Assembly (NCBI RefSeq): GCF_000165425.1
Contig: NW_001799411.1
Span: 385,769-449,768, forward strand
DNA: 64,000 bases
From: Paramecium tetraurelia
Taxonomy: Eukaryota; Ciliophora; Oligohymenophorea; Peniculida; Parameciidae
Direction of reading: 5' to 3'
The notes under the pieces are model-generated. The model was not told the origin of the DNA. It did not search any database and saw nothing but the letters and a program-made list of their open reading frames with translations. Position 1 is the first letter of the stretch. Each line of letters opens with the position of its first letter. Shown here one piece after another: positions 3,001 to 54,180 of the stretch. The translations under genes and the position numbers were made by a program.

Positions 3001-4612
3001 ATTAGGTTTTGGGAGTAGTCACATATACATACTCAATACCATATAAGATTAAGGATTTGGAATTCTACCCTAACAGTGTCTTTAGATTTGTAACATGTGG
3101 AGTGTAGCATATGTCTTGTTGGTAATTTGCAGGAGGATCATTGACATTCTAAGCAATGGAAATTGAAAATCCAAAGGATTTAGTGGAGTTGGTGGAGAAT
3201 CAGAATGACGAATAAGAAGGAGTCTAAGATAATGAGTAGGAACAAGATGCTTTAAGAATCACATTTTTGACTGTGATATTTGTATAAGATGCAATAATTA
3301 CAGCAGGTGAAGATGGATTCATATACGTTTGGGATGACAAAAAGATCAATAAGAAATAAAAGGCTCATCCAGATCAACCCATCTTCTGTTTATACACAAG
3401 CAAAGATTCTTCGATGTTCGTATCTGGAGGAATGGATGGAAGAGTCATTCTGTGGTCTTTGAGTAAATCTGAGTATTCCTATGTTGTGGAAAAGATATAC
3501 GAATATAGTATTGCTAATGAATAATTACAGAAGGTAGGATTGAATCCAAATCTACATGTTTAATCAGTCTGCATTGGATAGAACTACATTTTGGCAGGAA
3601 CACGAAGTGGTGATATCTATGAATTAGTTAGACCCAATGAATCCGATTTGAAATGTAAACATTTTGATTAAATTTAGCTTTGACTAAGATTCAGAAGGAT
3701 ATGGTTAAATTAAGAATCAATTGCACTGATCATGATCAACCAAAAGTTGTAGCTTTTTCTGGTAATGCTCAGAAATTGTATTCCATAACTCAAAAGGGAC
3801 TGTTTGCTGTATGGAATTTGAGGAAACTGAAACGAACGTATTCTTTCGCATTTGAAAAGGCCACACTGAATTTAATAGTGTGCAAATTGTCACCTAAAAT
3901 TATTATAGCTTTTGAACAAGAGGTGATTGTTTTGAATGATCATGATTACAGTGTTAATTCTAATTATTCTCTAAAATAGAAATCAGCAATCTCAGATATG
4001 AAATTGAGTGTTGATGAGAAGATGCTTGCTTTGGCCCTCTCAAGAAATCAAGAACAAAATGCTAAAATTGAAATATACGATGTTGAAAACGAAGAAAATA
4101 ACTTTAGATTACTTTGTAGCATTGACAATCTAAACACAAGTGTCGAGTACTTGGATTTCTCCACAGACAATTTCTATCTATTCTATAAAGATGTTTCAGA
4201 TGAGACTGCCCTAATCGATCTGGATCAACAGAAACGAATCAACAGTATGCACATGGAATTCGATTTGGAATGGTGTAGTGATGGAATCAAATTAGCTGAA
4301 AAAGCCAAGGGAGTGCACTCTTGTTATACTGACGAAAATAGAATCCACAAAATCACGTTGATCGGAGAAAAGTCCATGGCAGTATTTAATACATCTTATT
4401 CAAGGTTACTGATGATATGGGAACCATAAGGATCTTCAATTATCCCTGTACTTCTGGCACAAGGATACATGCGCATATATACTGATCATATGATGTACAT
4501 CAATCAATGTGTGGCCAGTCCAGATAAGGAAACTTTGGTTACGACCTCAGAACAAGACAAATGCATCATGGTGTGGAAGATACAGAAGGTTGATGTCAAT
4601 AATACATAATGA
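1..4612 (+). CDS. EMAP-like (EML-type) WD40 repeat protein, 5' end outside the window
   Basis: Partial gene, open at the left edge. With four introns removed (495-517, 630-656, 835-863, 3655-3677; 23-29 nt, GT...AG) a single frame of about 1,500 codons runs to TGA at 4610-4612, with many in-frame TAA/TAG read as Gln. The visible start reads RIAVVYNP then FYEGHRFKITCLAIHP, the pattern just after a HELP motif in echinoderm microtubule-associated-protein-like proteins. WD repeat endings follow throughout (IHVWN, IKIWD, LILWD, LLIWD, FAVWN, CIMVW). The number of repeats suggests a tandem EML5/EML6-like layout, probably microtubule- or cilium-associated (inference). The intron model is supported because each frame change is exactly accounted for. 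Another WD40 ciliary protein cannot be excluded. Confidence 0.85.
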
Positions 4613-26730: not shown

Positions 26731-29700
26731 TCATAATATAAGATGGTCTATTACGATGATTCCAATTATTCTTAAAATTAAATTTGAAGATGTAGTTTCT
26801 TGATTTTCATCTGGGTTATCACTGTTAGAGTCAGTTTGATTAGTGTTATTATCTACTTTTACTTCTGTACAAACCTAACATCTTGAGGTTTCAGTGTTCC
26901 AGGTATATGTGTATTCAGAGACCTTGAAACAATCACTTTACGAAAGTGTACTAGGATTTTTTAAACTACATTTTCCTTCAGTTAGAGAGCACTGTTATTT
27001 GGTGTTTTTATCCCAATTATAAAATCTAGTGCAATACCCAGTTTGTTTATAATTTGTATCACAAGTCAGTGTAGAACATGAACTTCGAGTATTTGAACCA
27101 TTAATTTTCTCTGCTGGTTTCCAATAACATCTATCTTTTGCAGCCTAACATGCATTCTAATCATTATTAGCTGTGCTACATTCCGTCATTAAAGTACAAG
27201 TTCCAATTCCAAGAATAGCATCTTAGCCACTTTGCTATTCAAAAACACAAATTTGGTTTGAGATTCCTCCAGAATTACAAGCTGTCTTAGAGGTATACGT
27301 AGAACAATTTGCTTTTGGAATACAAATATTATTATCTAGAACACAAGAGAGCGATGAGGTTAAACACTCGTTGGTTTATTAGATTTAAATATCCTGACAT
27401 GTGAATACTCTACATGAGGCTTTATAATTGTTATTTATTGATTCTATTTCCCAAATGCAATTACCATTGGAACCAACTGCTTCCTCACAAGTTTCCTTAT
27501 CTGTATATGAAGAACATTAATTTTTTAGTATGCAAGCTTTTCCATTTGTGGTGCAGGCTGATAGAAAGTTAGAGCATTCTTGATGAGTGGTTCCATAGTA
27601 ATCGGAACAAACTTAATTTCTACAAATATCCGAATCCCAAGTGCATAGTCCAGTTGATGTCAAACCATCAGTTGCAATTTGAGGTCCATTTTTATTTTTA
27701 ACACATGCAGCTTTGGAATTATATGATGAACATTCTCCTAATTATATACAACCAGTTAATCCATTTGTTGTACAACCACTATTAGCTCTTTGACATTCTT
27801 CATGAGTTAAGTAGAAGGCATCTACACAAGCTACAAATATTTTACAAATCTCTGGATCTACAGATTGAAAGGCTCGTACTGATTGCATACAAATACCATC
27901 ATAACCAGTGACGCAACCTCCATTAGTATTTGTTTCTGAACATGAAGTAATAGCCACACACTTTGACCCATCAGTTGTACATTTATCACTTATTTATTTA
28001 CATTATTAATCACTAGTCCACTTTAAACTCTAGCAAGAAGTGTATGAGAAACAGGCTCCTTGAGAACCATCCTAATTTATATATTATTCAATCCACAGAC
28101 ATTGTCCATTCAATCCATTTATGCAAGCAGCTCTAACAGTAGTCTATTCACAATTTTGTATCTTAGCACATTTTCCATGAACTCCTGCAGTGCAATCTAA
28201 CCTTCTGGCTTGACATGAAGAATGAAGTGATCCCTCTAAATCTTAACATTCTTAAACTCTGCATATGTGTTTAATGCCATCCCAAGCACAAATCTAACCA
28301 TTTAATGAAGTTGTGCAAGCACTTTCAACATTAGCGGCTTAACATGTTGATTTTTTAACACATCCTCCTCCTTTTTTTGTGGTGCAAATAGGTAAATACT
28401 CTTTGCATAACTATTCAGTTAACAAAGTACTTGGTGCCGTGGAACAAGTTTTTATGGTACAATACCATTAGTCATCTTCAGTATCAAAAACCCACTCACA
28501 TTAATCTCCTGTTGAAGAAGTAACACATCCAGCTTTATCTAAAGCCTATAAGCATGATCCTCTTGTAACACAAATAATTCCGTTTGTTGTGCATTTTGAA
28601 ATAGCTTGTTTGCATGTATCATCTGTGGCATAGGCAAAATCTTCACAAACCTTAGTTTTGCATTTGACACTATCTAAAGTACAACCAGTAAAGTAAGTAT
28701 TGCAATCATCTGCAGTAGCTGTTGCATCTGGAGCATTTTCGCATTATTTAGTAATGCAAGCTGTTCCTGTCCAATAGCATGGATCTCCAGCCTTATTATA
28801 ATAACATTGCTTCTATGTCATTGTTTCACAAGTTGCAGGAATATCTACGCATCCTTATCCAGAATCTGAGACTGTGCATTTATTAGTGATGTAGCCTCTA
28901 CATTTGGTATCATCATCATAATCTGATGTTGCAGGAGCAGTTTTGCAAGACTTATCTGCACAATCTATACCATTCCATCCACATGGATCTCCATTAGCGT
29001 TGATTTAACACTATTCTTTATCCATATACGTTTGACATGCAGCAGTCTATTAACATCCTCCTAAAGTTCGATCACCGCTGTTAATGTTTTGAATTGCAAC
29101 AGTGCATTTTACTGTTGGTGTATTGTAGTAAGCATAGCATTCATTATGGGTTGATAAGTCAGTAGGAGCATGTGAACAAGACATATCTTGGCAAACAGGA
29201 AAAAATACAGTGGCATCAGTATTCCAAAAACAAGCACCACCATTTGCATCTGTTTTGCATTGCTCTTCGACAATATATAAGCTACACCGGCTTCTTTCTA
29301 CACAACCTGGAACTGCAACACCATTTGATTATTTGACTGTGCAAGCAAGCGATGAATCCACAGCAACACATTTGTTATGAGTATCGAATAAAGAAGTGGC
29401 TTCAATATTGCTGCAAGTCAAATCAACGCAAGTCTTATAGGTTGGATTCCAGAAGCATTTTGCGCCACTTGAACTCAACTTACATTAGATTTAAGATTTG
29501 TAAGAAGCACAAGCTTTTCTCACTTGACAACCTCCTGATCGAGCAACTGTACATGATTGTAAGTAAGATGAACATTCAGTATCAGTATCATAATTAATAT
29601 CAGCAGGTGCAGTATCACAAGTCCTTCGTACACATGATGATCCCACTATTTCACATTCTCCTTCAACAGAGTAAAGGCAAGAAGATTAAGTTTAATCTGC

Positions 29701-32700
29701 ACATCTAAATGCCATTTGCAAGCATCCAGTATTTCCAGAATTTACAGTACAAATATTAATCCAATTATTGCAATTTGCATGATTGAATGTTATATCGACA
29801 GCATTTGCACAGGTTTTTGCTACACATCCAGTTGTTCCATTATTTGTACATCCGGCTTTGATTTCATTACAATTTGCACTACTGTAATTTCCAGATCCTA
29901 ATTCTATAGCCTCACAAGTTGCAGCTGATGATGCTGCAACACAAGTAGCACCACCATTCTTAGTTATGCATAGCCCAGCCGCTGATTTATAACAACTATT
30001 AAGTTCTGTGTATCCATAACATTGAGCTTATTGTAATACACATGCATTCCTTGATCTATTTACGCTGCATCCTGGGTTATAAGACTAGCAAATTTCATAA
30101 GTTATAGCTCCAGCAGCACCAAATATTTTAGAACAATGAGTTGTGGCATCTGAAATTGTGATACAAGTTGAGCCAACTAAATAACATTTTTAGGTAAAAC
30201 TTTTTGTACATTCTAACAATGTACCTGGATATTATTCGCAAGTTTATTTAAAGTCTTAACATCTGGTTCCATCAGCAATGGATGTACAACTTAGACTATA
30301 AGCTTGACATTAAGCATGATCAAGCCCACTTCCTGTTATTGCACCACAATTTACACCTGAGATAGGATAGCAAGAGTTATCAATCCAAATACAAGAACGA
30401 GAATCATTTGTTTATATAGTGCATTTGTTAAATGTTGTGTAGTCCTAGCATTTATATTTAGCTTCTTAGCAAGCAGTACCATCTTTTAGACTAATACACC
30501 CTGAATTATACATAGAACAGATCTAATCGGTTAATCTAATTTCAGTGATGAATTCACAATCTGTAGTGGCATTTGTAACAGAAATACAACTTGTTCCATT
30601 CCAAACACAAAGGCTTGAAAAAGATTATGAGCAGGTTGAATAATCAGCATATTCATTACAAATAGATATTTTTTTCTGACATGCTGTTCTGGCTTTATTC
30701 ACTGTACATTCTACATTATATTAAGCACATATTGCATCTGAAAGTCGAGTTTCAGTAACATATGCACAATGTATATCAACAACTGTAACTCTAAGGCATG
30801 CTGTTCCACTCCATACGCATTTATCTGCTGTTGCTGCAGCTTTTGATGTTGAGCATGTAGCTTCAGTGAAGTATAAGTCACAAGTAGCCTTTTGTTCTTG
30901 GCATGCTGTTCCTGCACGATTAGCTGTACAATCTGCATTATAAGCAGCACATATAGTATCTGTCAATCCAGTTCCAGTAACATATGCGCAGTGAGTAGCA
31001 ATATTTGCTGTTACTATTGCAAGACAAGCAGTTCCGCTCCAAGCGCATTTATCTGCTATTGCTGCAGCCTTTGATGTTGAGCAGGAAAGCCAGGTTACGT
31101 ATAATTCACAATCAGACATTTGTTCCTGACATGCTGTTCCTGCACGATTAGCTGTACAATCTGGATTATATGAAGCACATATTGCATCTGTTAGTCCAGT
31201 TCCAATAACATACCCACAATCTGTTGCAATATATGCTGTTCTTACTGCCCTGCAATCTGTTCCACTCCAAGCACATGTATCTGCTGTTGCTGTAGCTTTT
31301 GATGTTGAGCATGTAGCTTCTGTTGTGTATACGTCACAAGTAGCCTTTTGTTCTTGACATGCTGTTCCAGCTCGATTAGCTGTACAATCTACATTATAAG
31401 CAGCACATGTAGTATCTGTCAATCCAGTTCCAGTAACATATGCACAGTGAGTAGCAATATTTGCTGTTACTATAGCAAGACAAGCTGTTCCACTCCAAGC
31501 GCATTTATCTGCTGTTGCTGCAGCTGCTGAAGTAGAACAAGACTTCTGAGTTAAATATAGATCGCAAGTTGCTAACTTTTCCTAACAAGCTGTTCCATCT
31601 ACATTTGCTATACAACCTGCATCATAAGTTGCACAAATAGTAGTTGTTAATCCTGTTCCAGTAATTGAAGCACAATTAGAAAAACGCATACAATCTGTTC
31701 CATCAAAGTAACATTTACCCTATCCAGAAGTAGCACAATTGTTTGTTGCTGACATAACCAGAACAAGTTGTCTTATACTCCTAACATCCAGTGCCATCTT
31801 TTAAGGCTGTGCACTGAAGAGTGATAAAGCTAACACTTAGTGTGATCCAAATTAATTAATCCCGTTACAAAACTACATTCGGAGGGTTAATTCACTTAGC
31901 TACAATATGAATAATCGGTCCATGCACAATAATTTGTTCTTGATTTAAAACAATGTAATCTTTCGACATAAGCACTACAAGAATTTTAGATATTTATACA
32001 AGCAAAACCATCAATTCTAACTGAGCATGTAGAATCATATGCTTAACAATCTTACAAAGTCAAACTTACTCCATATATTAAAGTACAATCTAAAAAGCAA
32101 GCAACTGAGGATGTTGCAAAAAAAGTGTTTGTACATCCTTCTTTATATTACTGACACATAAACATTGTACCCTTGAATGATGAGCATGTTCCAGTAGCAA
32201 AAGTGGATATTGCATAGCATCTATCAACGATCCACTTACAATCATCATTAGCTGTTAAATTTGTGATAGTTTTGTGGCATTAACTCATTGTCATATAATC
32301 TGAGCAATTTGCTGATTTTGGTACGCATCCTTAACCTCCAGTTTTGTAAATAACTGTGCATGTTTCACTTGGTGTTGGGTAATTAAAGCATTCTTAATCA
32401 GTATCATAAAAGCCATAATCCGGAGCATCAGCACAATTAGCATTTCTACAAGAAAATCCAGTCCAAACGCATCTTCTGAATGTTGATGTAATTTTACAAT
32501 TTTCTTCTATTACATAAGATGCACAACTACTTGCTAGTTATTGACAAGCAGTTCTTCCAGAATTTACAGTGCATTAAACAAATGCAACTTAACAACCGCT
32601 ATGTGTGGTTTGAGTAATATTTTCACAAGTTCTATCAACACAGCTGCTGCCATTCCAATAACAATCTCCATTTGCTCTAGATCCTATTAAACAATTAGAT

Positions 32701-34829
32701 GGCACTAATGATGAACAACTAGATGGTTTAGCTATGCATCCATCACCTGTATTATTTAAAATACAAGTATAGAGATATGCTTGACAAGCAAAATGACTTA
32801 ATCCTCCTGCTGATAATGCTCCAGTTGTTTCATCATTGGTAGCAGTTGCACAAGATTTTTCAATGCACGAAGAAGTTGAGGCGACCCAAAGACACATTGG
32901 GAATCCAACTCTTTAAATTTCACAATTTTCAGTTGATTTTCTAGCAGCGCATGTAGTTGGTAAATCTTAACATCCTTAAATTGTCAAAGTACCATTAATA
33001 TTTACAGGATTATTAACCACACAAATTGGTAGATGTTCTTAACATTATACAGTAGTTGTGAATGTTTTAGAGGCAGTAGAACAAGCTTTCTTAATACATT
33101 AAGATCCGTTCCATCCGCATGGTTTCTTATTTGCTTTCATTTTGCAAGCAGCTTCAAGAGTTATGGCTTCACATCTAAGTGGAAGTAGAACACAACCTGA
33201 GCCTGAATTACTCAAAGTACAAGATGAGTGATACATTTAACAATCAGCATGAGTAGTAGTATTAGATGAAGCCAACACACATTGTTTCTTATAGCATTTT
33301 GGTTTCCAAATGCATGCTTTATTATTTATATCTTTATCACAAGCATCTAATACTAATGAATTTTCACATGTTTTTTCTATGCATCCAGCACTAGTTGAAT
33401 TTACTGTACATGTATTTAAGAAAGCTTAACATAGATCATGAGTAGTGTTAGTTTTTGGAGCATTCGCACATGTTTTATCTTTACAACTTGAACTTGCAGT
33501 ATCCCAGAAACAAGATGATCCAGTAGAATTCTAAACACAGGCAGCTTCTATTGTTATAGCAGCACAAGTAGTATTTGTAACACATCCACCTCCTGTTTTT
33601 GTTATACAATTATTTGCTGTTAAATAAGCTTCACATGCATCATTTGTTGTCAATGTTGTTGGAGCATTAGCACATGATCTATTTTAACATCCACCTCCTG
33701 ATTTAACAGTACAAGTAGATAAATAAGAAGTACATAAATCATGAGTGTTATTGGTTGTTGGGGCATTGGCGCATGTCTTCTCTTTACAAGTTGTATCCCA
33801 AATACAATCAAAATTACTTGAGTTTTTAACACAGGCTGCTTAAACATTAGCAACAGAACAAGATCCATTAGCAACACATCCACCTCCTGATTTAGTGATA
33901 CATCCTGTAACAAATCCTGCACATGCTGAATTAGTTGTCATTGTAACTGGTGCATTTGCACATGTCTTATCTACACAAGCAGTACCTGTCCAATAACAGT
34001 CACCACCTGAACTATTCTTAATACATGAGGCTTCAATAGCTGCAGCAGCACAAGTAGTTCTAGTTACACATCCTCCATTGGCTTTAGTTGTGCATGTTCC
34101 ATCAGTTCTAAATGTTTTACAGGCATCATCAGTATTCATACTTGTTGGTGCATTATCACAAATTCTATCTTTGCATTTATCTCCATCCCAATAACAAGCA
34201 ATTTATTTTAATTTATCCCAAACACATTAAATCTCTAATGTTTAATCACTGCATTTATTTTAACTATCAACACATCCACCTCCTATTTTTGTTGTACAAG
34301 TTGAAATCACATCTCTGCAATCTTTATCTGTTATAAATGTTGTTGGTAATTTATCACAAGTATTAGCATCAACACATGTATTATTTTTTGTATCCCAATA
34401 GCACAAGCTTCCTGCAGTATTTTTCACACATGGGAGTTGTTTTTTATAAGTACTACAAGCATCAATTTCAACACAATGAGTTCCATCTGTAATACATCTA
34501 TTGCTTATTGCTTAGCATTCAGAATCAAGTATTTTAGTAAAAGGTGTGCATCCTGTGAAAAATGTACATTTCAATTCAACCCAAGCACAACCAAAAGTTT
34601 TAGGACAAATCGCTTCATCATAAGAACTACAGTATTGAGAATATTTTATTGGTACATTGCTGGGAGTTGATTTTTAACAAAAAGGTGTATTTTTTACATT
34701 CCAAGTACACATTGCCGTGATGCAATCATCTTCTGATAGCAATTGAGAGCATTCACATATTGTTTTGCTATAATTTTAGGATTCAATTAATAGAAGCATT
34801 ATAGCAAGAATCAAGATTTTTTTAATCAT
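26731..34829 (-). CDS. Paramecium-type surface (immobilisation) antigen, cysteine-periodic and GPI-anchored, with two apparent frameshifts
   Basis: Spans 8.1 kb from ATG 34827-34829 to TGA 26731-26733; about 2,700 residues if read through. A signal peptide (IKKILILAIMLLLIESQ) leads to dozens of cysteine-rich units of the Paramecium surface antigen family (for example ANRAGTACQEQ, ADKCAWSGTAC). The end is a Thr/Asn/Asp-rich stretch and a hydrophobic GPI-signal-like tail (SSNLILRIIGIIVIDHLIL). Such antigens coat the cell and cilia and are expressed one at a time. Two successive +1 shifts at about 31812-31833 and 31740-31757 break the frame. Unrepaired, the N-terminal frame ends at TGA 31419-31421. 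A 23-nt GT...AG segment there could restore the frame but would replace a normal Cys unit by a Cys-free one. A silent copy or assembly error are alternatives. Confidence 0.9.
30720..31530 (-). repeat. 228-bp tandem repeats in the surface-antigen gene
   Basis: The string gatgttgagc recurs at 30845, 31073 and 31301, exactly 228 bp apart, inside three near-identical units of 76 residues each with eight cysteines (units include CTANRAGTACQEQ, ATADKC, WSGTACL, HCAYVTGTG). Central near-perfect repeats are typical of this antigen family and are hot spots for unequal exchange. Divergence is low compared with the flanking units. Confidence 0.92.
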
Positions 34830-35882
34830 TATTCTTAATATTGACTTTTAATATGAATAATATGACAAAATTAATCCTATTTTTATGAAAAACATTTTAG
34901 TTACTTTTGTTTTATGACTTCAAATAGATTTTACTTTAAAGAAAAATTTACTTTTTTACATATTTTTTAAGAAAGATGGAAATAAATCGAAGAAATAGAA
35001 TTGGATTGACCTCAGAAGTAACCATTTGTTTGGCTCAATAATAATTTGGAATTTTGATTCAAAAGGGATATCTCTAACCTAAATAGAATTATCTATTTTT
35101 TTTATATTTAAAAATTATTTTCTAATAATAATCATGTTCTTACATTGATTACATATCCTTAACTTAGAATGCAAATATTTGAACTTGTTTTAGATAGATA
35201 CAGTAATGTAATTACTCTTACAGTTTCATTTTCATTTTTATAAGAGTATTAATATTATCAGTTATTATCAAAAACAAACAATGCGCAATTTTATTTTATC
35301 ATTATAAGTTGCTATATTATATAAAAGAGTGTTGCCAAAAGTAGATGTATTTAGTTAAACTGATAATTCTATTTTTTATCTTACTATGGCTTTCATATTG
35401 AAAAAATTACATAATTTTAAGTTCCATTTAATAATCATCAAGTTTTAACGAATATGAGATAGAATAGAACTATTTAGATAAAATAAAATTTAGAAAATAA
35501 TTAATAAATTTAATATTAATTAACATTGTATCTAAATCAAAAATTAAAATTTTAATTCTTTTTCAAAAATTTATAAATTAATTCTGTTTCTTTCGTATTT
35601 AGCTTGGATCATAATCCATTAATTTCATTATAAGAACCAACGTGCAATCAAATAAGAAGCAAAACAATTTATTTAACTTTACTTTTTAAATATAGTTTTT
35701 TATTATTATTTTCTTTGATAGTAGAATTTTACTCGCAAATCTATACCTTAGGTCAATTTAATCGAATTATTTCTTTCATACAATTATATCATATATTTAA
35801 CATTTCCTATAATATTTAATAGTCTATTATCCTTTATTTTCAGAATATCTAAGCAACAAAAAAGTAAAAAAAAAGTACGAGA
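34830..35882. other. AT-rich gene-poor region upstream of the surface antigen
   Basis: About 1 kb of very AT-rich DNA preceding the antigen start on the minus strand. It would hold the antigen promoter, but no motif is recognised. A protein-like fragment begins near 35860 (see next entry). Confidence 0.45.
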
Positions 35883-39037: not shown

Positions 39038-42034
39038 TCAAAAGTCAAAATCATCTAATAAGTCCCCTTTCTCAGCCTTTTAAGCCAATTCTTTTTACTA
39101 ATATAATATTGTAAACTATGATACCTTATCTATTTTTTATTGATTTCCTACTCCTCTTCTATTTCCTCCACCACCAAATCCAGGTTCATAGGTTTCATTA
39201 TCCTCCTTAGGAACTTCAAATTTTCTTCTTTGTTGATTGGGTCTATACTCTTCCTATTGCTTTTGACCTCCTAAAATTTCATCCAGAGTCATTTCTCTCT
39301 CTTCTTTATGTTGAACTTCTGGGACTTATTTTACATCTTTAATTTCTTATATTTCTTCTATATTCTCCTTCTAAACTGGCTAATCTTCCCATATATTTAA
39401 TTTATTATTGCCCCTATTTCTTCTTCCTTATAGTTTTGCTGGTTCTTGTCTTGGTTGAAATTCATACGCGGGTTCTTCAGTTTTAGGAGCTTCAGGCTAC
39501 TTTTCATCAGCAAATAGTTTAATTCTACGCTATTTATTACTATCATCAGTTGGTTGATATGTTTATTGAGAAGATATAGATTATTATTATGAGGAAATTG
39601 ACTATTATTATGATTATTATTAGCTATTATTCTATTCTAACTATTCCTCTTAGCCACCTCTATTTCTTCTTCTAGTAGGATATTCTAATTATTATGTTTG
39701 TTCTTATTTTTAATTAATTAATATTGGTTGTTCTACTGTTTATTAAGTTTATTAAGTTGATTATGATGGTTATTGTTGTTATTATTATTCTATTGAATTA
39801 TAATCCAATCCTCTGGGTCTGTTGGATACTCTTCTCGTTGGAAAAGTAGGTTGATAATCCTCAACAGGTTTTGGTTATTCAGGTTGTATGGGTTATTCAA
39901 TAGGTTTATTGTTTTATTCATTTATTTCTTTGTGATGATCTCGTGGTTGCTCAACCGGTTTAGAAGCATGAATTATGAATTGTGTAGTTTCTTCTGATTT
40001 ATTTTATTATGGTTTTTTCATTCTCATCATTCTAGAAGGACCTGTATATTCTGTTTAAACATCGCTAGTATTACTTTATTAATTGCTTACATTGCTTTAA
40101 CCTAAATCAAGAGAAGGTTATTAATCAACTGATTTTCTTAGATTACTAAAAGGTTTTGAATTTAATTTATTTTATTGATTAGGAGATTAAAATTATTATT
40201 ATTATTACTATTATTATTACTATTATTGTTATTGTTATTATTATTGTTATTATTACTATTGTTATTATTTTATAACTTATACTTCTTATTTTAATGGAGT
40301 AGAATTTGAGATTGGAATTTATTTTTTCTCTTCTTACTTTATTTGCTATTATTATTCAGTTTCATCTTCACATATAATTTCTTCTTCTACTTCATTCTTT
40401 GATGTTAATTATTATGACTTTTAATCTTATTTAACAGGTAATTTTAATTCTTTATTATGATTTTATTCCTGCTTAGACATAGGGGGTTTAGCACTCTACA
40501 ATTTTCTTTGACTTTCTATTTGCATTCTTTCATATTATAATTCATCAGAAATATTTTCTTAAGTCATGATAGCAGGCATATCTTTTAACTAATCTGTTGG
40601 TATTTTTTCTTTTAATTCTGCCTTTATTTTTCTCTAATCAATTAACATCATTTCATTTGTATTAATTTATTGGTTAAAGAATTCTTTTTCTTTTTTCAAT
40701 TCTTTGATTTCCTTCTCTATCATTTCCAATTATTTATCCTTCTTTTCCATAATTAGATTATGTTTCAACAAATTGTCCTTTTGAGCCAATAGCATAAGGT
40801 ATTGTTCTTTTTATTTACTGAACGGTTTATGTCCACTAATGTCAATCCTATACTTTTCAGCTTCTTCTTCCAAAAGCCTTAGTTCCTTATTGATTTTAGG
40901 GAGTTCAACTTCTTGTGTGTTTTTGATTGTTTCCTTCTGTTTATTGTATTACTCCTATTGTTCCTTAATTTTCTTCCTAATATTGGCAATCTCTTGATTT
41001 AGATTGTTCCTTTCTTTATTCAACTTGTCAAATCCATCTTGATTCTCATACTTATCAAGATCTTTGCCTCGTTGTTTCTGTTACAAATATTCTTACTTTT
41101 TTCTTTGTTCTAACTTCTTCATTTCATCTTCAAATTTCTTAATCTCCTCATCCAACTTCATGATGTAGTTCACCTATTATATTTGTTGCAATCTGGTAGT
41201 TAATTTATTAATCTCCTCTTCCTATTACTCTAACTTTTTTTGATTAATTTCAATCTCCTTATCAATTACAGAAACGCCCGAGAGTTAAGATTGTGCTGTT
41301 TTCTATCTCTTAATTTATGGCTACGGTTATGGTAGTGATGATACACGTTAAGCATTCAGCTCGACTAATTTAGTCACTTCTTCAGAGATTTCTTTAAGCT
41401 TCTATCTGAGTAACTTGTTTTCCTCATGCAACTGTTTTGGTTTCCAATTAGAGTAATCTTAAGGAGCCATTAGCTCTGCATATTTCTCTTAATAGGTGGG
41501 TTTCTATTTAATAGGTTAGATAGGCAGAGGAGGTCTCTTCTTTTTCTTTGGAGGTTCTAAAAGAGGAGCCGATTTATCAGATTAAGCATTTTTATTATCT
41601 TTAACTTCTTTGTTCTATTTGTTATTATTAGGATTTTCCTGCTCGAATTCATCGTAATTCTCTTCATAGTCATTTTATTCATAATCTTCATCATATTGTT
41701 CTTCTTCATTTTCTTCCTCGTTATATTATTCATTATCTTCAGGAACTTCTTCATAGACTTCTTCTTCTTATACATTTTCTTCGTTGTCATTATGCTAAGC
41801 TAAATCCTCACTCTAATCTTCATATTAATAGACTTCGCCCTCTTCTTCCTCCTCAGGTGGGTAAGGAGTGTGAGTTCTTTGATTTGAAATTGGATTTTTG
41901 TTCTAATCATTTTTTGGTTATTAATTATTGGGCATCTATTGGTCATCATCTCCTCCCATTAGATCTTCCTCATAATTGAATTCTTCCAGGCTCAATTCCT
42001 CATTATCAATTTCTCCAAATTCCTCTTAATCCAT
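39038..42034 (-). CDS. Acidic, coiled-coil and Q-rich protein, 998 residues
   Basis: A single intronless frame of 999 codons, ATG 42032-42034 to TGA 39038-39040. Residues 1-180 are very acidic (EEEEEGEVYQYEDQSED). A proline/lysine patch (LEPPKKKKRPPLP) and PQDYSNWKPKQLHEENKLLR introduce a coiled coil of about 300 residues. A 25-Gln tract lies near residue 610, then Q/N-rich low-complexity sequence. The C-terminal part has RGG-like basic patches (PTRRRNRGGQEEQ; FGGGGNRRGVG) and ends GDLLDDFDF. It looks like a scaffold or RNA-associated protein, but I do not recognise the family. It shares a 13-bp start spacer with the glycosyltransferase gene. Confidence 0.82.
40193..40267 (-). repeat. Polyglutamine tract of 25 codons, mostly TAA/TAG
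   Basis: Read on the minus strand in the frame of the 998-residue gene, 25 consecutive codons are TAA (18), TAG (3) and CAA (4), all glutamine in Paramecium. On the plus strand it appears as an imperfect ATT/ATG trinucleotide microsatellite. Confidence 0.93.
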
Positions 42035-42047
42035 TAAAATAATTAAA
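42035..42047. promoter_or_regulatory. 13-bp divergent start-codon spacer
   Basis: Only 13 bp separate the start codons of the 998-residue protein (minus) and the glycosyltransferase (plus). Transcription of each must begin in or across the other gene's 5' end; no motif can be assigned. Confidence 0.35.
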
Positions 42048-43502
42048 ATGAATTTCTGCTACTTTTCATAGCTTTGGCCCAAACAATCCTTCTCAGCAGC
42101 TCATGAACGGACATTTGGAATAATCGAACGCTTTATCCACAATAATATCAAGACATTCTACATCACTCCTCAAGATAAAAAAAAAGCAGAGGATATACGC
42201 TAATATATTGATCTGAAATGCCAACAAGCCGACCCTTCAAACACAAGTAGAGTCAACCATGTGTTGAGTCGCATCCAAACCCCTACAGTAAGTGTTTTCG
42301 ACACTCATGTATCAGAATGCTTGTACAGTCATTATGTACATTAAGTATTCTCAAATTGTGCTAAAGTGCTGGACTTGTAAGACTTACACAGTTTAAGATT
42401 GAAGAGGGAAACCTTGCTCACTGGGGAATTGATGAATAAGGAAGTATTAAAGGCAAAGCCAGAATTAGGAGATGAACTCACTGATAAGGAGATGGCTTCA
42501 ATTATAAGAAGCGATCTCATAATAGCATGTTCTGATTACGAAATGGAATTAATAAAACATCTAAATAAAAAGGTTCAATTGGTCACCTTCTTTTATCCTA
42601 CCACAAGACGATTGGATGAAGAAGACAAGCAAGCCATAGAACTCAAGCAACATCATTACAAGAGAAGACACTTTGTATTTCTTGGTAATATGTCGCATCG
42701 ACCGAATTATGATGCAGTCAAAAGATTAAAAGATCGAATCTGGCCAATAATCGTCAAAGCACTTCCATAAGCTCAGTTACATATTTATGGTAGTAATTTC
42801 CCTGCAGAATTCAAAACAGATGAGTACAATGGTTTCATTTGCAAGGGACTAATGAAAGAAATTGACATCCTTGGAAAGTATAGAGTCATGCTAGCACCCT
42901 TGCGTTTCGGTGCTGGAGTTAAAGGAAAAATCACAGATGCTTGGAGAGAAATGTTACCTGTCATTACAACACCTATTGGTGCTGAGGGTTTATTCTTAGA
43001 ATCAAGTTAAGCACTAAAATATGAATGTGTCAATCAAATTCAATCCAAATTCTATTCTGACATGGAAGCCGATCGTCTCAATCCACAAGTAAGGTAACAG
43101 AGTCTGGAGGAAGAAAATTTCATGAGGGAATACTACTCCTATGATAATAACACTGAAGAAATGGCTAAGAAATTAACATTTGGAGGTAGCTTTAATAATT
43201 GGACTGATGAGCAATTCGCTGAAGAAGCCATTAAAATGTATGAAGATGAATAATTGTGGCTTAATGCCATTGAAAATTCATAGAAAATCTTAAAAAGAAG
43301 AATGGATACAATTGTTAATGAAAAGTTGTTGATGAAAGCCATCTCAGAAACTTAAACTAATTTAGCTTCGATGAGAAGACAGGATATTTTATAGAAGTTG
43401 ACTTGGAGTGAAACCCTTCGTTCCAATTATCATTTTGCCAAATATCTTGACGAGAAACGTAAGAATTTAGAATTAACTGGTAAATTAAAGTAATCGAATT
43501 GA
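42048..43502 (+). CDS. GT4-like glycosyltransferase, 484 residues
   Basis: Intronless ATG 42048-42050 to TGA 43500-43502. The second Rossmann-type half shows the group 1 glycosyltransferase pattern: [54 protein letters not shown] sequence, [38 protein letters not shown]. The Lys and Glu positions expected to hold the nucleotide-sugar donor are at GVKGKI and GAEG. The N-terminal half ([36 protein letters not shown]) is the acceptor domain. No signal peptide or membrane span. A C-terminal extension of about 130 residues is coiled-coil-like. Sugar specificity cannot be told. Confidence 0.85.
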
Positions 43503-43564: not shown

Positions 43565-46500
43565 TCATCTCCCCTTTATTACTATTCTTGCCTTTCTTAT
43601 ATTAATAGTATCCTAATCAAGATCAGATTACAAATCTATTGTCATTAATGTTATATCGTTATCCATGATTTGAATCTGTAATTCTTGTGGTTGTTCACCT
43701 TCCAAAGTAGAAACGAGGATGTATGGAATCAATGTGGAAGGCAAATTACCACATTCTATCAATTTGTGTTTGTCCATACTCCATTAGCAATTCTGACATT
43801 CTAATCCTCCAAGTAGATAAGATCCATCATTTAATTACTGCTATTGTACATGGTTTATTTCAGTACATTTCGAAATATCAGTATAAATATTGAGATTCCA
43901 AGGATTGAGACCATTCTTACGACTAAATTGCAATTTGAAGTATTCCAATAATGCCTTAGGAATAAATAGGTAGCTTAAATCAAAGTACTTTCGATTTTAT
44001 TAATCTCTCAATAATTTTAATTGATACACATTTGAATTCACCATTTCTATTAAATTGTGAGTGAGCAAATTAGATTTTGGTTTGTACCACAAATATTAAT
44101 ATAGCTCATGTGGACATGGCATAGCATATATATCTGGATTGTTCCTGATATATTCCTTCAACTCTTCTATCAATACATTATACTTCTAGATCTAAATATT
44201 GATATATTGATCAACAGCATCTGTGTATGAAATATTTTGTTTATTTTTGTTTATGATATTAAGTGCTGTTTTTCGATAATATTAAGAAAAGGGTTTTGAG
44301 TCATTTTTTTGAAAAGAGTACTTTCTTGTTAATTTCTATTCTAATTTAATTAAATTAAGTGGCTCAACTAATTTAAGCTATGCTTTATTCTGACTTTAAA
44401 CTACAGTATTATTGCTATTAGTTAATAGTTAGAATTATTGAATTATCTATTAATTTAACTAATTATAAATTGCAAAGTTGTAATGTCCGTAGCCAATACT
44501 ATAGGTATCATTTGTATCTGGAATTCGATTAATCATCTCATCTAACCATACATCACTGCCTATTGGAAGTGTTTGAAAATGCAAATATTAATAATTCTCA
44601 GTATTTACTTACTAATTGCAGTGCTTATAAATAATACTTTCTATAGTTATTTGATCTTCAGGAGGGACATTGTATATTCCATCAGTTATTAGTTTAAACA
44701 TACTATTGATGTTGGTATTGATGAAGTAGGGCAAGTTAAATTTTAGGATTAGATTTAAATCTGACACCGTATAGGTCTCAGAAGTCTAATTTAATAGTAG
44801 ATTCCTCTAGATGATGAAAAAGTGCATATAACATAAACTGTAAGTGAACTTTTTCATTTCACTTGTATTGCCATCCACTTTAGGTATGTATTTTTTGATG
44901 TTCTAACGTATTTATTCATCATATTGTAGAAAAGACTTCTAGCAATTCAATAATGTTTTATCTAGTAAAAGATCTTCTTCAAAATTCTCTAGAATGCAAT
45001 GAGGATATTTGCTTTGAATTATTTGTTCCTGCAATTCCAATGGATAATGTGACAAATTAATGAATAAATATTGCTGATTGAGTTCTTGCTGTCCTTTATA
45101 AATGGGAATGTTGATTTCTTCTACAAATTTTCTTAATTAGGATTAGACATATATGATTTGCTTTTCTGATGTCTAATAAATCTTGTTGGTTTTGATTTAA
45201 GTGGAGTGTCTCGTTGATCTGTCCTTGATGTACTCATAAATGAATCTTCTCAAATATTTGGGTTTGAAAGCCTTTATTAGAATGAGCTTCTCAAATATTT
45301 ACAATTTTTCATCATATTCACTCGGAATGGACAAGGCGTCATCCAACCATTTTTACCATTCCTTGGGATATCTTGAGATCTGAGTATGTAAATCATCAAA
45401 TGATGGTGATAAACTCATAATGTATCTGATTTCATCCCACTGATCTTATTTGATGAATGAAACACTTAAGGATTTTGGATATTTACTCAAGTCCTTCTGT
45501 ACTTGTTGACCAATAACATATTAGAACTGATCCTAAGAGATGGTTCTATTCCTCAGATCTATTTGAGTAAATAAAATGAACTTCACCAACAAATGATGTT
45601 CTAATCTAAATTGATTTTCTATCATATGCATTGTCTACAATGTGAAATGATTACTTATGATCCAATATCGTTCTGAGCTGTCTCCCTTGATTTAATCCAT
45701 CACTTGAATCAGTTTGTCTAATAATTGTTGCATTGTGATATAATAACGACGATCAAAAACAATAGATTGTTGCAGACTCTTATAAACCAATAAGAATCTC
45801 ACCATCAAAGGGTGATAAATTTCAAAATTGAATTGTGTATTGTATTATTTCTATTATTCCTATTGATCAATAAGTTCTTGAATTTGAGTAATAACATCTA
45901 GGTTAATTATGCTGTTAAACTAAGAGGATATCAAGAGACTCAGTTATTGTTCATAAAGGGGATCCATAATTGGATGATCGTCATCCAAGAGAGATCCTAA
46001 ATTTATGAGTGATAGATTCTCCTCGTCATATTATTGTACCAATTTATCAAATATCTCAGGATTTTCCTTTTGTAGTATGTTTAACAATGCATATGACTCA
46101 ATTTCTTTATCTTATTTCTTAAAATAAATAGTTCGCAAAAGCGATTAGGCTATACTTTCATGTCTTATTTAATAGGAAATAAAGTATATCTTACTCTCTT
46201 GTTATTACTGAAATTGCAATATAAATGATCTCCATCGTTATGATTTCATTAATTCATCTATTATCACATCATTTATGATTAGGCATTACTGGGTTTAATA
46301 GTTGCTTTTGATTTCATTTATATTGTTGATATTGAATGAACTCACATATGCAGTTGGGTAGAATTATTATAGATATTCTTGAGACAGGTTTTCAGGGTCA
46401 ATGATTAGTAAAATATTCTTTTGATTTTAAAATTTCAAATTGAGTAGTAATTACATATTCTCGTAATCTAATTTACATTGTAAATTCAAATTATCAATTA

Positions 46501-49500
46501 ATTTCTACTTTATTTATTAATTATAACTTTGACAAATACTTTGTACAAAATTGATATCAACCAATTGGATTTATTGTTATTATAAATTAAATATATTCTA
46601 TTGCCATTGGACTTGATATTTATTCAAATGCTGAAGACACTTTCTTGTTGCTTCAAATATCTTGGTGATCTTTTCCAATTAATCAGTTAAAATACGTGAT
46701 TTAGATTGATAGATATTGATTTATTGTTCTTATTATTGTATCATACCAGTTCGCAATTCTTGTTTGTTCTTCATCTCTTCAACTGCCACTTTGTCATTGT
46801 GTAGATTGTTTTAGAGTTGTATTAAGGTTTGTTGATAATTACAAATGTTGATGGCAATCTAATAGATAGTTTAAATTTATTATGAAGATTATGGGTACTT
46901 CAAAGTAATCTGATCAATCTGATATTGTTCCAATTATGGCAAATCAACTAAATGCACCAATTCCATAGATAATGGTTACAAGAAGGGAAACTCTTAGATG
47001 ATGTGAAATAGTTGCAATCTTTACTTATTATATTATTGGAATTGCTGATTTAATTACAATTGCTGTTTATTGATTTTCTACTCACTTTTGTTGATATTAT
47101 CATTCAATTTATTGATTTATTGACTGATATCTCCCAATTCTAATTTATCCTTAGAAATCTCATTATTTATAATATTCATTTGATTAATAACCTCCTAAGA
47201 TTCTTAATTGTACTTGTTGTACTAAGTTGTGATGGTACTGAATTCAGTGTTTGCCTCCTCTATTTTATTGAGTACCTTCTAGTAAATGATAATTAATCTC
47301 TAATTCTCAGATTTGGATTGTTAATACTATTTTTGGAATAAATAGAGTTGATCTAGGAATTATTGAATGTATCCTTACGATTATTCAAAGACCTTGCAAA
47401 ATAGATTAGTATCAATGGACCTGTCATTAAGAATCTAAGTAGCAACATCCTATTAGAATACCTTTGGCCATCCAAATAGTCTGACAACTTAGCATTTATA
47501 GAGTATTCTCTTATAATCATCCAATTGATTCATGTTCTCGATCAATATACATATGTGCAAAGATGAAATGGAATCAATTTTGGACAAACATAAATTGTTA
47601 CAATACAAAATGGGATATGAGATGAATTGATAGATATTATCATTGATGTTGGTAACATACGTGATATGACTCTGCTAATCCCAATTCTACAAAAGATCAT
47701 TGAGTCCAAGATCCTGATATTTCTATTCATATTACATTATCAACTGAGCCAATCGAATAAACGAATTCCGACCACTCCCAATCCTTCCTTGAATTATGAC
47801 ATGTTGATCATATTGCCATCCTCTCATTATACATATGATCTTCTCCAAGTGACTTTCATGCAAAAACAAATTAGACACATTCTCCTTTTTGATTTCATCA
47901 TACATCTACTTAGTCTATTGCACAGAAATCTCTATAGGGTAATCTCCAAAATTGAGTTCCTTTATACACTTATCCAAATTGTCCATATCTATTATATCCA
48001 TGGAACCGCCTATCACTCTCATGATATTTTGATAGAATTGATTTACAAACTGTTGTGGATCATTGTGTACGATCAGGGGATTTAAGATTCTGTACCAAAT
48101 AGCATTATTATCGAATAGATAACGATAACACCATTGTTTTTCCCAATGCTATTTGAATTTATGTGATAATTTCAATATTCCATCGTTGATATAACCCAAC
48201 TCCAAGTATTGCTTAACTTTCTCTTTGACTGCCATTTCTATGATTATCTGAGTGTAGATGTTCTGAATCAATGGAGATCTGCTGGTGTTGATGAATACGA
48301 AATGCTTGAATTAGTTGTATTTTTCGATTAACTGTTCCTGTGAAGTACCCAACAAATAGAAGTTGCTGATGTGTTTCAACTGACAATTGTTCTTCTTATC
48401 AAACATGTAATTGTATTCGTTCAATTGCTTAATGAAGATACGACATTAACTGGATACATTGATATCTTCCACTATGAAATGCTTAATTTATCCAAATGGG
48501 GGTGACAAGTACAATTACTTATCCTTCCTGTATGTCATCAGCTTCTTATCTATAAATTCCTGCAATTCAATTGATTTGGTTCGACTACTAAAGTACAAGC
48601 AACATGATGATTTCAACTTGGCCAAGATGCTCTTATTGCATGTGATGTCACCATAGAATAGAATGTGACTCTGCAACTCTTGAATGGCATACAGTTCTTA
48701 CTGATTAAAGTAATATTGCAAAGTTGTGTTATTATACGAAGACTTTTGGTTGAACAATTGATCCAATTTTCTTTCTTGTATCACCATTAAAATCTAATCG
48801 ACAACACGAGACTTGTTCTCCTGATCCAAAATCAAACAGAATAATGTGTAAGTCGCATAGGTGCTTATGTTTTCAACATCCAGTTGTGTAAACTTGCTGT
48901 ATTGTTGTTCGTTGTAGTAAATGCTTAAGACTTTGGCAGAACAACGCAACACGTATTATAATGAATACGGGAAGTTTAACAATAGTTGGTAATACTACTC
49001 GATTTGATGAATCAAATTACGAGCCAATAAGGTTTGTAATTCTATATTATTGATGTACTTCAATTCTTGAACAAGAAATTGCTGATTGGAAATGTTATTA
49101 TTGTAGTAGAAGAGTGTGAAATTGGTCAAAGAAGCAGGGTCTTGTTTTGATATATCATTGCTTTCAAAGATTGCATTCCTATTAGAGTACACTAGACTAT
49201 TAAACAATACAAAGTTCTCCAAATTAAAATAGATTTGCTTTTATCTGAAATTGATCATAAAATGATAAAATCTGAAGGATTGAGAATTTTATAAAATACT
49301 GAACAAATCTTCATCATCATAAGCATCTAATTCAAGAGAGAGAATGCTGTTTTGTTTTGTGGATTACAACAGAGTATTATCATTTTAATTAGTGTTCTCC
49401 TATTCAAATTTAAATTGAAACAGTTCTTAAATTAATTTGCTCTTACCATTGTTGGGTTGACCATACATTAGAATGAGATTGTTTTCATTGAGCAAAGAAT

Positions 49501-52500
49501 TCAATTTTTCCATTTCATATCGATTCTCTTCCCTGTTTGGAAAGTATTCATTCACTATTGAATTAAATAGCTATTTGTCTGCATTGTTCAAGTGATGCTG
49601 CAACACATCCAAGAGATCATTCAATTTGATGGTCCTCAAGGTCTTGACTACTTGATTAAAGCAGTTGAATCTAGCAAGATTAAACAAATCAGCACCTAAG
49701 ACACTGTTTAATGTTTGTATCAATTTCATCAATATTTCAACAACTTCCTAATTGTATATCATTTGAATGAGTGCCTACCATAAAATCATGATATCAGGTT
49801 GGTAGACATGAATGTTCTTAAATGATAGGATGGGATGATGGACATCTGATATCAGAGTGAGAAAATGCTTGTTTTATAATTTCACTTGTCTCCCTTCCTA
49901 ATCCATTATCTAAAGTTATTACCATAGAGCACTGCAAATTTAATTGAATATTGTTTGCAGGATCAGCCTATCATCTTATAGAAGATATTAGTATCCCGTG
50001 ATGATGAACAAGGAATTCGATTGTATTGATCCATATATGCATTGCAATAAATAGGTGAAATCATAATCCCCACTTGTAATCTACACCTACTTGTAATAGC
50101 GTCCCAGCATTTGTGAATATTGGGTGATAATGTAATACTTACTGTAATGGCCAATCAAATGGGGTAATCGATTGATTTAGAAGGCTTGATTCATAAGCAA
50201 AATACACTATTCAGACTACTTCCATGAATGATAATTGAATTCATCCCCAAAGAACTCAAATTAGTATTGAATTTTGTTATTCAAGAAATTAACTAATATG
50301 TTTTCATCATCATAGTAATATTTCATCTATTTCAAATAGAAGTAATCTTTATCACTATTGATTTTGAATTGATTTAACTCCTATATTAGATTTTTTTGAT
50401 TATTCATTATCATAATGATTGCAATCTATCGCAATTATTGTTTAACTGACTATTTCTCAGAATGCAATAGTTTGATCTGCTCGTGTATTTCATATTATTT
50501 GAATTCCGCTAATTCATTCCAATCCTTCTCATCATTTTACAGAATATCATCCAACATCATTGTATAAGTAATAGTCATACAAATATATATAATCTAAATG
50601 GGATACTACACAATCTGCTGATAGTTATCAGCATGCTTTAATGCATTCTTGATGATTTGTCTCAATCCTTACTTCATGCCTTCCTCCACAGTTTTGAACC
50701 AATCTTCAATCTCGCCCTTCATTGGACAATACTTAACTGCTATTTAGTCATTTTCTTTGGAATAGAGAGATGTGACTGCCTCCTTGTTTTGGTCATAATC
50801 AAATTAATGGATATTTTGGAAAAACAGACTTAGATATTGTTACATGGCTGCAGGGTGTTTGACTTCAGAAACAACCTTGTTAAATTGGGAATTGGTAAGG
50901 AAATTGAATCTTGGAAACAAATACTTCTTCTTATCGAATTGTTCATTCAATTATTGAATGATACTCTTACAATTCTGATTGTCTTGTTGAATCTGTTTCA
51001 AGAACTTCTTCTCATACTCATCCTTAATCCAGACTTCCAAACTCTTCTATTGCTAGATGAATCTTATCAATTGCTTCCACTACTTTTCCTAATGCTAATA
51101 CATCTTCATCTCCTTACTCTGGTTCTTCTGATTGATCTGAGTTGATAACACATTAGTTAAATAGTATTGAGTATCTTACAGGAGAGTCAACTAATTGATG
51201 TACTCCTACAGATACACGATGTTCTTCAATTGCATATCAATTCTATTTCTTAGATCATCGATATTAGGTTGACCCAGAATGTTATTGATAATCAGAATGT
51301 TCTCATCCAATTATTCATTCAAATAACTTAAATTAATGATTGAGTATTGATCCTTCGTTCCTTTAATCTTCTGAATGAGCAACTTATGATTCTTCCAGAA
51401 CTCCTCTAATTTAAGAAGCGAGTTCATCGTTTGATTCTCATATTAAATGATGATCAATAGTTACTACAAATTATCTTGTTGTTCATTGATGTCTGACTGA
51501 TACAAATATTATGTAGTGAATACTGGATGCTATGGATTGTTACAAATTTACAATATCAATTATAACAAGTTCTTATCCTATTACTTATCCTTCTTGCACA
51601 CTTAAGCCACGATATTGTGATCATAATCTTTAATCTGCAATATGATCTCTATCACATTATAGAGTTTCAATTCATTCATCAATTGAGTCTTGATCTAGAC
51701 TAATTAACCCTACCCAAATATCTTGCAATCCTCAATCTAATGCAGTAATTTCTAATATGTAGTCTTAATGATAGACAGATTCAGATCCAAAAAGTGTTCT
51801 CTCATCCATTCCTACTGAAAGTTCTTGATCTTATGAATTTCTATTTACAATTACTTAAATTAGACATATTTATTCTTTATCTCGTGCAACTGTTCATTAT
51901 GATATTGTTCGATTTACAAGGAATATGAATACTACTTCAAATCCTCATATTCTAATTCCAAAGTAATCAATTAGCCTTGCAATTGTGAAATTGAATTGAT
52001 GTCATCTATGTCCTTGTTGTTTTCGAATTACTCACAAAACTATAACACTTTCTGATGAAAAAAAGGAGTCAACCTTCTGAACTCCTTCTCGAACTTATCT
52101 TACACCAATCCATATTGATTTTGCAAATCGTAAAACTTATATTAGAATAATTAATATTAACTAACTATCTTGTCCCAAATATCCTTAATGGGAATTGTCT
52201 GCTCCTCGTTATTATAAATTCTGTTGTAAACATGCAACTCTTCTATTTATTAATCAATGGCCTCGTAATGAGATTTAATCAACAAGTAATTCTCCTGATG
52301 TATCACGTATTGTTTCAGAGTCACTGGTTTCAATTTCAACTTCTCCAACCAATCTTGAATTTTCTCCTAGATTATCTTACACTTCCCTCTAAGTTCCAAA
52401 TCCACCTTCTGATTAATCACCTAAATCTTATTCTTAAAGAAGGTCTGCGTCTGCAATTTAAACAGCTGGATGTTCAATCTCAAAAACCCAATGTCCACAA

Positions 52501-54017
52501 TGTTCTCTATGATCTCTATCTCAGATTGCATTTCAGAAATTAATTAGAATTACTGCCTCAACACTTCTGCATTCAACAACTGATCCTCACTCTTTGCAAA
52601 TTCATCCAATAACACCTAAATCTTCAACATATAGTGTTCTATCTGCTTATAACTAAATTGCAACTCTTCTCCCAATTCCTAAATATAATCATAAGATTTC
52701 AAATTTATCCGTCCATACTCCCTCAAATCTTATCTCAGATCTGTTGAGCTCGAACCCACTCCATAAGTCTGTAATTCCTATTGCTTCCTCGTTGATGAAA
52801 TGCTCTGTTCTATTATGTCTATAGCCTTTTCCATTGTTTAAACAAATATATCCTACATACCTCTCAACGATGGCTCAAACACTATGGCTCCCTCTTACAA
52901 ATGGATCTCTACAACTACCCAACTAAACTAGGTTGTTCTATTGAATAAGAGTATTAATTACCCAACTTTGAGATGTTTATTGGCATTCTTAATTACCTTT
53001 AAGAAATTAACAATAGAATTGTACATCAATATTATCATGCTCTCAAGTTGAATGTAATCAATCATCCTCGTGAATTTGATTAGCTTCTACTGAAATTACC
53101 TCAGATTTGATTCCATTGTGAATTGCATTGACTGTGTAGAATTATCCTATTTATAAGAAGGGCATTAATACACCAATAATAAGAGGCTTTTGCTCCATTT
53201 GAGAATTCCGTATCAACTCCAAATTCTACCTGTAACCTTGGTCTTCTTTAAAAATACTAAAGGAATATTGACATGCATCCACAACTATTTTCAATATCAA
53301 ATTGATGTTCTTAGCCAGTTCTTTTTAGAAATCATTTAGAGATCTTTACAATTTTTGAATGAACTTCGCCTGATTCACAGGACTCATTTGAGTAGGCACA
53401 AAAAACACCAAACCCTTTATCCTTTGAGTGTACTTGTGAATTTCCTCAATGGGTCTCTTGAGGGAGGGATCTAAGAGTAAATAACAAGTAGTCAGTTCCT
53501 TAGATATTGATTGAGCTTTATTCTTGATACTTAACTTCTTCCACCTAGTGAATGTTTTTTGTTGCAGATAATTTCGAAAGAACTCTATCTTTTGTAATCT
53601 GTGAAACAATTTTCGATCTTTTTCAAATTGCTTAATGGACACAAACTCCTCAAAATTGCTGTGGTGTATTATGATTCCCCTTCCACTTATGGTCATATAA
53701 TAATCTAAGTTTCTATCATCATAATTGACAACCTTCCATTCGTAAGGATTGCCATAATTGTTTAAATAACAAAATTCCTATCCTAAATTTTAATCCATCT
53801 GCAACAAACGAACAAAATCATTAGGCCCCAAGAATCCCATTGAATATTCTCTAAAACTTTCAGATTTCCCTCTTTGACGAAGTGGCGTTATCTGACTCAA
53901 TTAACTCAATTAAGGTTAAACTATTTGCGGCAATTAAAAGCGCTATGGACTAAATGCTTTTATATAGCGTTTTCGGTTAGTTTCAATGAATTGCGATTGC
54001 TCGTTTTTTGTAGACAT
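43565..54017 (-). CDS. Highly divergent axonemal-type dynein heavy chain with degenerate AAA1 site
   Basis: ATG 54015-54017 to TGA 43565-43567, about 3,450 residues. An intron at 52938-52961 is clear and at least one more frame-changing intron lies upstream of about 50400; from about 50150 to the stop the frame is constant. The N-terminal tail shows YYMTISGRGI, FEKDRKLFHRLQ and FFRNYLQQKTFTRWKKL, as in axonemal heavy chains. AAA1: MKYYYDDENILVNFLNN aligns with the sequence before the catalytic P-loop, but where GPAGTGKTE is expected it reads LIGHYSKYY. The Walker B DEFNR is LFIITGYQYL, and NPGYAGR is lost. AAA2 has GQPNNGKS, AAA3 GDITCNKS and a VEDIN Walker B, AAA4 GRIGSGRNS, AAA5 LLIIDPENLS. 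The C-terminal domain ends soon after GSYLLGGLECQNCQW. The stalk is approximately 46300-47100. Confidence 0.88.
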
Positions 54018-54180
54018 TATTTTCGGAACAAGGGGAGTATCGGTAGTTGTTCTGATCTTCAATTTCTTCCTTAAATACTATTAATTCATTATAAATTTAA
54101 GAAATAAATTAAATTGCTTTTTTTACAAAATTTCAATTTGAGTAATAAATATAGATATCAAATGAAGCAGAGTACTATGG

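Follow-up and report, generated by a model that had tools for sequence, protein, structure and literature searches.

Among the nucleotide sites of dynein, AAA1 has been described as the only one that motility strictly requires, with all of its catalytic residues reported in all isoforms (PMC4879348). AAA2 of dynein-1 and dynein-2 is thought to bind ATP without hydrolysing it, and dynein-2 tolerates non-consensus AAA3 and AAA4 sites while keeping a consensus AAA1, according to one published account (PMC6103457). Atypical heavy chains are already known; the human gene DNHD1, for one, has been called an orphan, or a ghost, among dynein genes (PMC8754002). Among ciliates, 25 heavy chains have been counted in Tetrahymena and 19 in Ichthyophthirius, and the part of the survey giving these counts makes no mention of dead AAA1 sites (PMC3341644). 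Literature searches, at the level of the titles and abstract openings listed, turned up no ciliate heavy chain reported to be dead at AAA1. The gene described here lies in a stretch of 64,000 nucleotides of the Paramecium tetraurelia genome (assembly GCF_000165425.1, contig NW_001799411.1, positions 385,769 to 449,768; hereafter the window). A duplicated and selected heavy chain whose AAA1 is erased, it is an apparent exception, by its sequence, to the completeness of AAA1 in all isoforms. It resembles dynein-2 in its non-consensus AAA3 and AAA4 and differs from it at AAA1; it resembles DNHD1 in standing outside the standard set, a likeness of description rather than of compared sequences.

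Loss of the AAA1 motifs

The gene (43565..54089; minus strand, as are all of its features below) is read with translation table 6 from a predicted start at 54089, the first ATG of the open stretch, to a stop at 43565-43567, giving 3499 residues. Its AAA1 position (residues 1267-1510; 49535..50266), delimited by alignments and a piecewise Pfam scan, is shortened and has no Pfam dynein match. As aligned, this main ATP site lacks the glycines and threonine of Walker A, the two acidic residues of Walker B and the NPG loop of sensor I. Two alignments agree on the first two motifs: a profile-profile alignment (hhalign) of the gene and its paralogue against 30 AAA1 regions of the same genome, which extends over the whole domain (query residues 22-297 paired with positions 1-327 of 327; E 5e-5 at a probability of 67.6%), and a MAFFT alignment of 30 rows, namely 27 of those 30 ordinary loci, the gene, its paralogue and a third degraded chain, C174, discussed below. 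LIGHYSKY (50135..50158) stands in the place of GPAGTGKT, with the lysine as the sole Walker A residue kept, in a column that is invariant across the 30 MAFFT rows. FIITGYQY (49985..50008) replaces ACFDEFNR, with threonine (serine in the paralogue) for the aspartate and glycine for the glutamate. In the sensor-I region, LISDVHHPILS (49823..49855) occupies the position of ITMNPGYAGR in other chains and is followed by a shortening; the two alignments place this loop two residues apart, so that nothing beyond the lack of NPG is secure at this point. The column of the sensor-II arginine holds glutamine in the MAFFT alignment and alanine, with an arginine beside it, in the profile alignment, so that the loss of this residue is uncertain. 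The paralogue reads LIGDNSKY at Walker A, S-G at the Walker B acids and LVSDVHFP at sensor I.

Ordinary heavy chains of this genome (69.07 Mb in 231 contigs searched) keep these motifs: Walker A and Walker B are each present in 30/30 comparison loci, and the NP-G pattern in 29/30. These are the best 30 of 67 AAA_6 matches, a choice that biases the set towards ordinary dyneins; five are partial, one of them with an internal TGA. The remaining locus (L044, on C230) has a lengthened sensor-I loop, NPAGKNYGGR instead of NPGYAGR. An AAA_6 match adjoins DHC_N2 in 43 of 45 loci, counted from two lists that are both lower bounds, and the exceptions are the gene and its paralogue, even at E<=10 (by eye).

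A hidden intron or frameshift that would restore AAA1 is ruled out: in the six frames of 49301-50500, G-x4-GK[ST] does not occur except as the GQPNNGKS of AAA2, and NPG occurs in none. The gene strand carries two intron-like GTA..TAG stretches, of 25 and 31 nucleotides; whether one or both were spliced out, the constrained frame would be disrupted. Confusion of AAA2 with AAA1 is likewise ruled out, since the segment aligned as AAA1 comes before the intact P-loop of AAA2, and AAA3 and AAA4 follow. The first-pass annotation of this DNA had reported an apparent loss of Walker A, Walker B and NPGYAGR from AAA1; the catalytic motifs are indeed gone, while the Walker A lysine remains. It had also named an intron near 50100-50200, or a segment lying outside AAA1, as ways in which the loss might prove illusory, and there is no P-loop there in any frame and the segment aligns as AAA1.

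The region was also modelled with AlphaFold2 from an alignment to which the 27 ordinary loci and C174 had been added. The model reached a predicted local distance difference test score (pLDDT) of 60.9, with block means of 80-89 over residues 71-150, and a predicted TM-score of 0.47. A Foldseek search with the model gave 947 matches at E<=10; the 50 listed were dynein motor entries or long axonemal doublet chains, with a best E of 1.2e-9 and a TM-score of about 0.4. The added ordinary rows bias this model, which goes no further than showing that the sequence is compatible with threading onto AAA1.

Constraint on both copies

The paralogue (L003, on C186) is 78.4% identical to the gene. Over 3465 codons the nonsynonymous divergence (dN) is 0.118, the synonymous divergence (dS) 1.445 and dN/dS 0.082 (bootstrap range 0.070-0.094); the stretch of the paralogue compared starts at residue 31, and within the compared part four codons, 59-61 and 1946, are gapped between the copies. 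AAA1 itself gives a dN/dS of 0.092 (bootstrap 0.052-0.153), with 49/26/89 substitutions on codon positions 1/2/3. By its pattern of substitution the gene is under purifying selection, and both copies share the AAA1 losses. Together with the 3499 open codons, this bears out the earlier statement that the gene is not decayed. Among 14 pairs of ordinary AAA1 regions, the seven with dS of 0.71-2.23 give ratios of 0.076-0.105; the ordinary pair L025-L029, for example, has dN 0.100, dS 1.27 and a ratio of 0.079. Set beside intact AAA1 regions of similar dS, the degraded one is under about equal constraint; recent pairs are the more tightly constrained.

The single intron, of 25 nucleotides (GTA..TAG; 53147..53171) and placed from the reading frame, is matched by a 25-nucleotide GTA..TAG stretch at the corresponding point of the paralogue. 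As recognised by eye, the two copies also have a common 3′ neighbour gene (MDQYEYGEI.. and MDQEEFGEI..). The shared intron position and neighbour make it likely that the paralogue arose when the whole genome, or a segment of it, was duplicated. In the window, a glycosyl transferase gene (41883-43499, plus strand) separates the dynein gene from this neighbour; the gap beside the C186 copy is too short for it, so that it was either gained in the window or lost at C186.

Layout and remaining nucleotide sites

A full-length Pfam scan matched DHC_N2, over the linker (50642..51889; E 2.5e-47), as the sole dynein model. When the protein was scanned as six segments, AAA_7 at AAA3 (48341..48673; E 6.8e-7), AAA_8 at AAA4 (47720..47863; E 8.7e-7) and Dynein_C at the C-terminal domain (43745..44017; E 1.8e-7) passed their own cut-offs in order after the linker; the segments with AAA1, AAA2 and AAA5 matched no dynein model. 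The order of the linker, AAA3, AAA4 and C-terminal matches indicates that the layout of a full-length dynein heavy chain is present, AAA1 being flanked by the linker on one side and by the intact P-loop of AAA2 on the other. All of the strings quoted in the first-pass annotation fall within the one 3499-residue frame: QMKYYYDDENILVNF at residue 1246, LIGHYSKYY at 1303, NSLFIITGYQYL at 1350, LISDVHHPILS at 1404, YGQPNNGKS at 1534, GRIGSGRNS at 2093 and LLIIDPENLS at 2552. Its length estimate of about 3,450 residues is corrected to 3499. AAA2, AAA4 and AAA5, which it called recognisable, are present as strings, with the qualification that the AAA4 Walker A lysine is an arginine.

The AAA2 Walker A, GQPNNGKS (49439..49462), is intact and reads GNPNNGKT in the paralogue. 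In both copies the AAA3 Walker A, GDITCNKS (48629..48652), has asparagine for the glycine before the lysine, and the AAA4 Walker A, GRIGSGRNS (47762..47788), has arginine for lysine. The AAA3 Walker B position, FIVEDINV (48455..48478), placed by eye against FVDDVNMP of L050, keeps its acidic pair, ED here, in both copies. AAA4 and AAA5 are separated by 459 residues in the gene and 460 in the paralogue; in C174 they lie 525 residues apart, and in one ordinary chain 620. A distance below both comparators is indicative of a shortened stalk and tip, as judged from just these two chains, and the position of the microtubule-binding domain (46811..46996) would span about 62 residues. No Pfam match to that domain was obtained in the full-length scan, the stalk segment not having been scanned separately.

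Probable affinity to the DNAH6 class

Several lines point to single-headed inner-arm dyneins. An N-terminal tail stretch (residues 111-219; 53433..53759) resembles the DNAH6 class, its best PDB matches being a T. brucei chain (9e5c_6d, E 6.9e-11) and then DNAH6 (8j07_g5, E 2.4e-7). Apart from the paralogue, the three best relatives in the genome by E-value are L004, L005 and L006. L005 belongs to the DNAH6 class (Chlamydomonas chain 8glv_Fm, 2.1e-125; DNAH6, 7.5e-112). In a tree of the linker, L004 and L005 form a group with the C128 chain (L006/L031), supported at 100/96. In this mixture-model tree of 41 rows (10 of 51 rows, second loci of the same genes, were removed), the gene and its paralogue are sister to the DNAH6-class chains of the genome at 71/87, and at 86/91 in a second tree from which C174 was removed as well. 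Their stem is 2.47 changes per column long, the tips being 0.06 and 0.17. This long branch and an unusual composition limit trust in the placement, and the sequence evidence thus lends modest support to the DNAH6 class as the nearest.

The gene shares with that class its domain order, tail stretch and linker. It differs in the loss of the AAA1 motifs, the altered Walker A of AAA3 and AAA4 and the short stalk, and it is about 650-740 residues shorter than four solved members (4144-4242 residues). Within the class, L031 of C128 has a slightly altered AAA1 (GPSATGKT and RNPGYDGR), and its close relative L035 is standard.

A maintained, probably non-cycling heavy chain

With the Walker B acids and the sensor-I loop gone, hydrolysis of ATP at AAA1 appears very unlikely. 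With AAA1 erased and the remainder of the protein under selection, the product probably has a structural or regulatory role instead of working as a motor, as the first-pass annotation had also suggested. The reading favoured here, with confidence somewhat outweighing doubt, is of a heavy chain that is catalytically dead but selectively maintained, that descends from an inner-arm dynein of the single-headed kind, with DNAH6 as the nearest class, and that is docked and does not act as a motor. An AAA1 unable to hydrolyse ATP would permit neither ATP-driven ring closure nor a linker swing, and the ring would be fixed in one shape, perhaps with nucleotide at AAA2. The tail would dock the chain in the axoneme as that of an inner arm does, and the docked chain could then serve as a fixed linkage, spacer or brake that produces no force. 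The retention of tail, linker and ring under selection suggests such a docked, non-cycling head. If so, the gene would provide a natural AAA1-dead ciliate dynein, through which one may ask whether inner-arm heads have roles other than force production.

Several observations weigh against this reading. The seven close pairs of ordinary AAA1 regions (dS 0.09-0.88) have much lower ratios, 0.000-0.020, so that the dynein gene would be the less constrained if its duplication were of like age. The dS between the copies is near saturation and is not computable in 2 of 9 segments. In the paralogue, a one-base length difference just after AAA1 (L003, about 4467) breaks the frame; dN/dS is 0.085 before and 0.077 after this point, similar values that point to a lesion of recent date, a mistake in the assembly or recoding at this site, three cases that cannot be told apart. 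The kept Walker A lysine leaves room for weak or non-canonical nucleotide binding, and in the profile alignment an arginine adjoins the sensor-II position. The best PDB matches of the long open reading frame, over the linker, are DNAH7, DNAH12 and DNAH1. An AlphaFold2 model of AAA1 built from the gene and paralogue rows only had a pLDDT of 34. Finally, an axonemal location is suggested by the dynein class alone.

The retained lysine also bears on an alternative, unlikely though worth weighing, in which nucleotide cycles elsewhere. ATP would be bound by AAA2, by AAA3 or by both, or else by a non-canonical AAA1 acting through this lysine, and its binding site would switch the ring, making the chain a slow regulatory ATP sensor and not an inert scaffold. 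Such a sensor would accord with the invariance of the lysine column and with the intact AAA2 Walker A and AAA3 acidic pair of both copies; the alteration of Walker A at AAA3 and AAA4 in both copies speaks against it, as does AAA2 of dynein-1 and dynein-2, thought to be non-hydrolysing (PMC6103457).

Loss of microtubule binding, which the shortened stalk may entail, would fit a job outside the axoneme, in assembly, at the basal body or in cytoplasmic anchoring, for which only the dynein scaffold is used. No datum of this analysis places the product in cilia; even so, this explanation is improbable in view of the DNAH6-like tail stretch and of nearest relatives that are inner-arm chains.

A pseudogene or assembly artefact, which the very long stem branch and the one-base difference in the paralogue might suggest, is largely contradicted and very improbable given the 3499 open codons, the similar dN/dS on both sides of the break and the intron at the same place. 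Descent from an ancient orphan class shared with DNHD1, likewise an atypical orphan heavy chain gene by its description (PMC8754002), is just as hard to credit, as the sequence evidence points to a DNAH6-class origin.

A third degraded heavy chain

The C174 heavy chain (L047, 273000-282500) also has a degraded AAA1, reading YGNSGKIE and FALTKCSE by alignment and LIGGTKNT by eye, with weak AAA_6 matches (54.1 and 16.4 bits). It differs from the dynein gene in its nearest class, DNAH1 by phmmer, and in an intact AAA3 Walker A; by eye, both its AAA2 and AAA3 Walker A are intact. FastTree, in a tree that shows no support values, grouped the two, which the mixture-model tree did not bear out. A single clade is not rejected by the approximately unbiased test (p 0.222), so that AAA1 may have been lost either once or twice. 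C99 and C185, which also gave weak AAA_6 matches, were not taken for dyneins because their translations, on reading, look like midasin-type multi-AAA proteins.

The DNAH6 class is presumably dynein g, and the DNAH1 class dynein d. Single-headed inner arms are described as paired at the radial spokes, with d and g at radial spoke 3 (PMC12399478). A doubtful extension is that two separate lines of motor-dead inner-arm chains exist, the DNAH6-class pair of copies and the DNAH1-class C174, and that they form a passive pair of heads at this spoke. In some of the cilia or doublets, this pair would then take the place of a motor pair and serve to set stiffness or waveform.

Other genes in the window

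Elsewhere in the window lies a Paramecium surface antigen gene (26734-32010, minus strand; PF01508, E 1.4e-172), which, like the nuclear code and the size of the dynein intron, is in keeping with a ciliate of Paramecium type. A frame at 31419-34919 overlaps it and contains further cysteine-rich repeats of like appearance. An EML-like beta-propeller gene occupies 783-4609 on the plus strand, in two overlapping frames.

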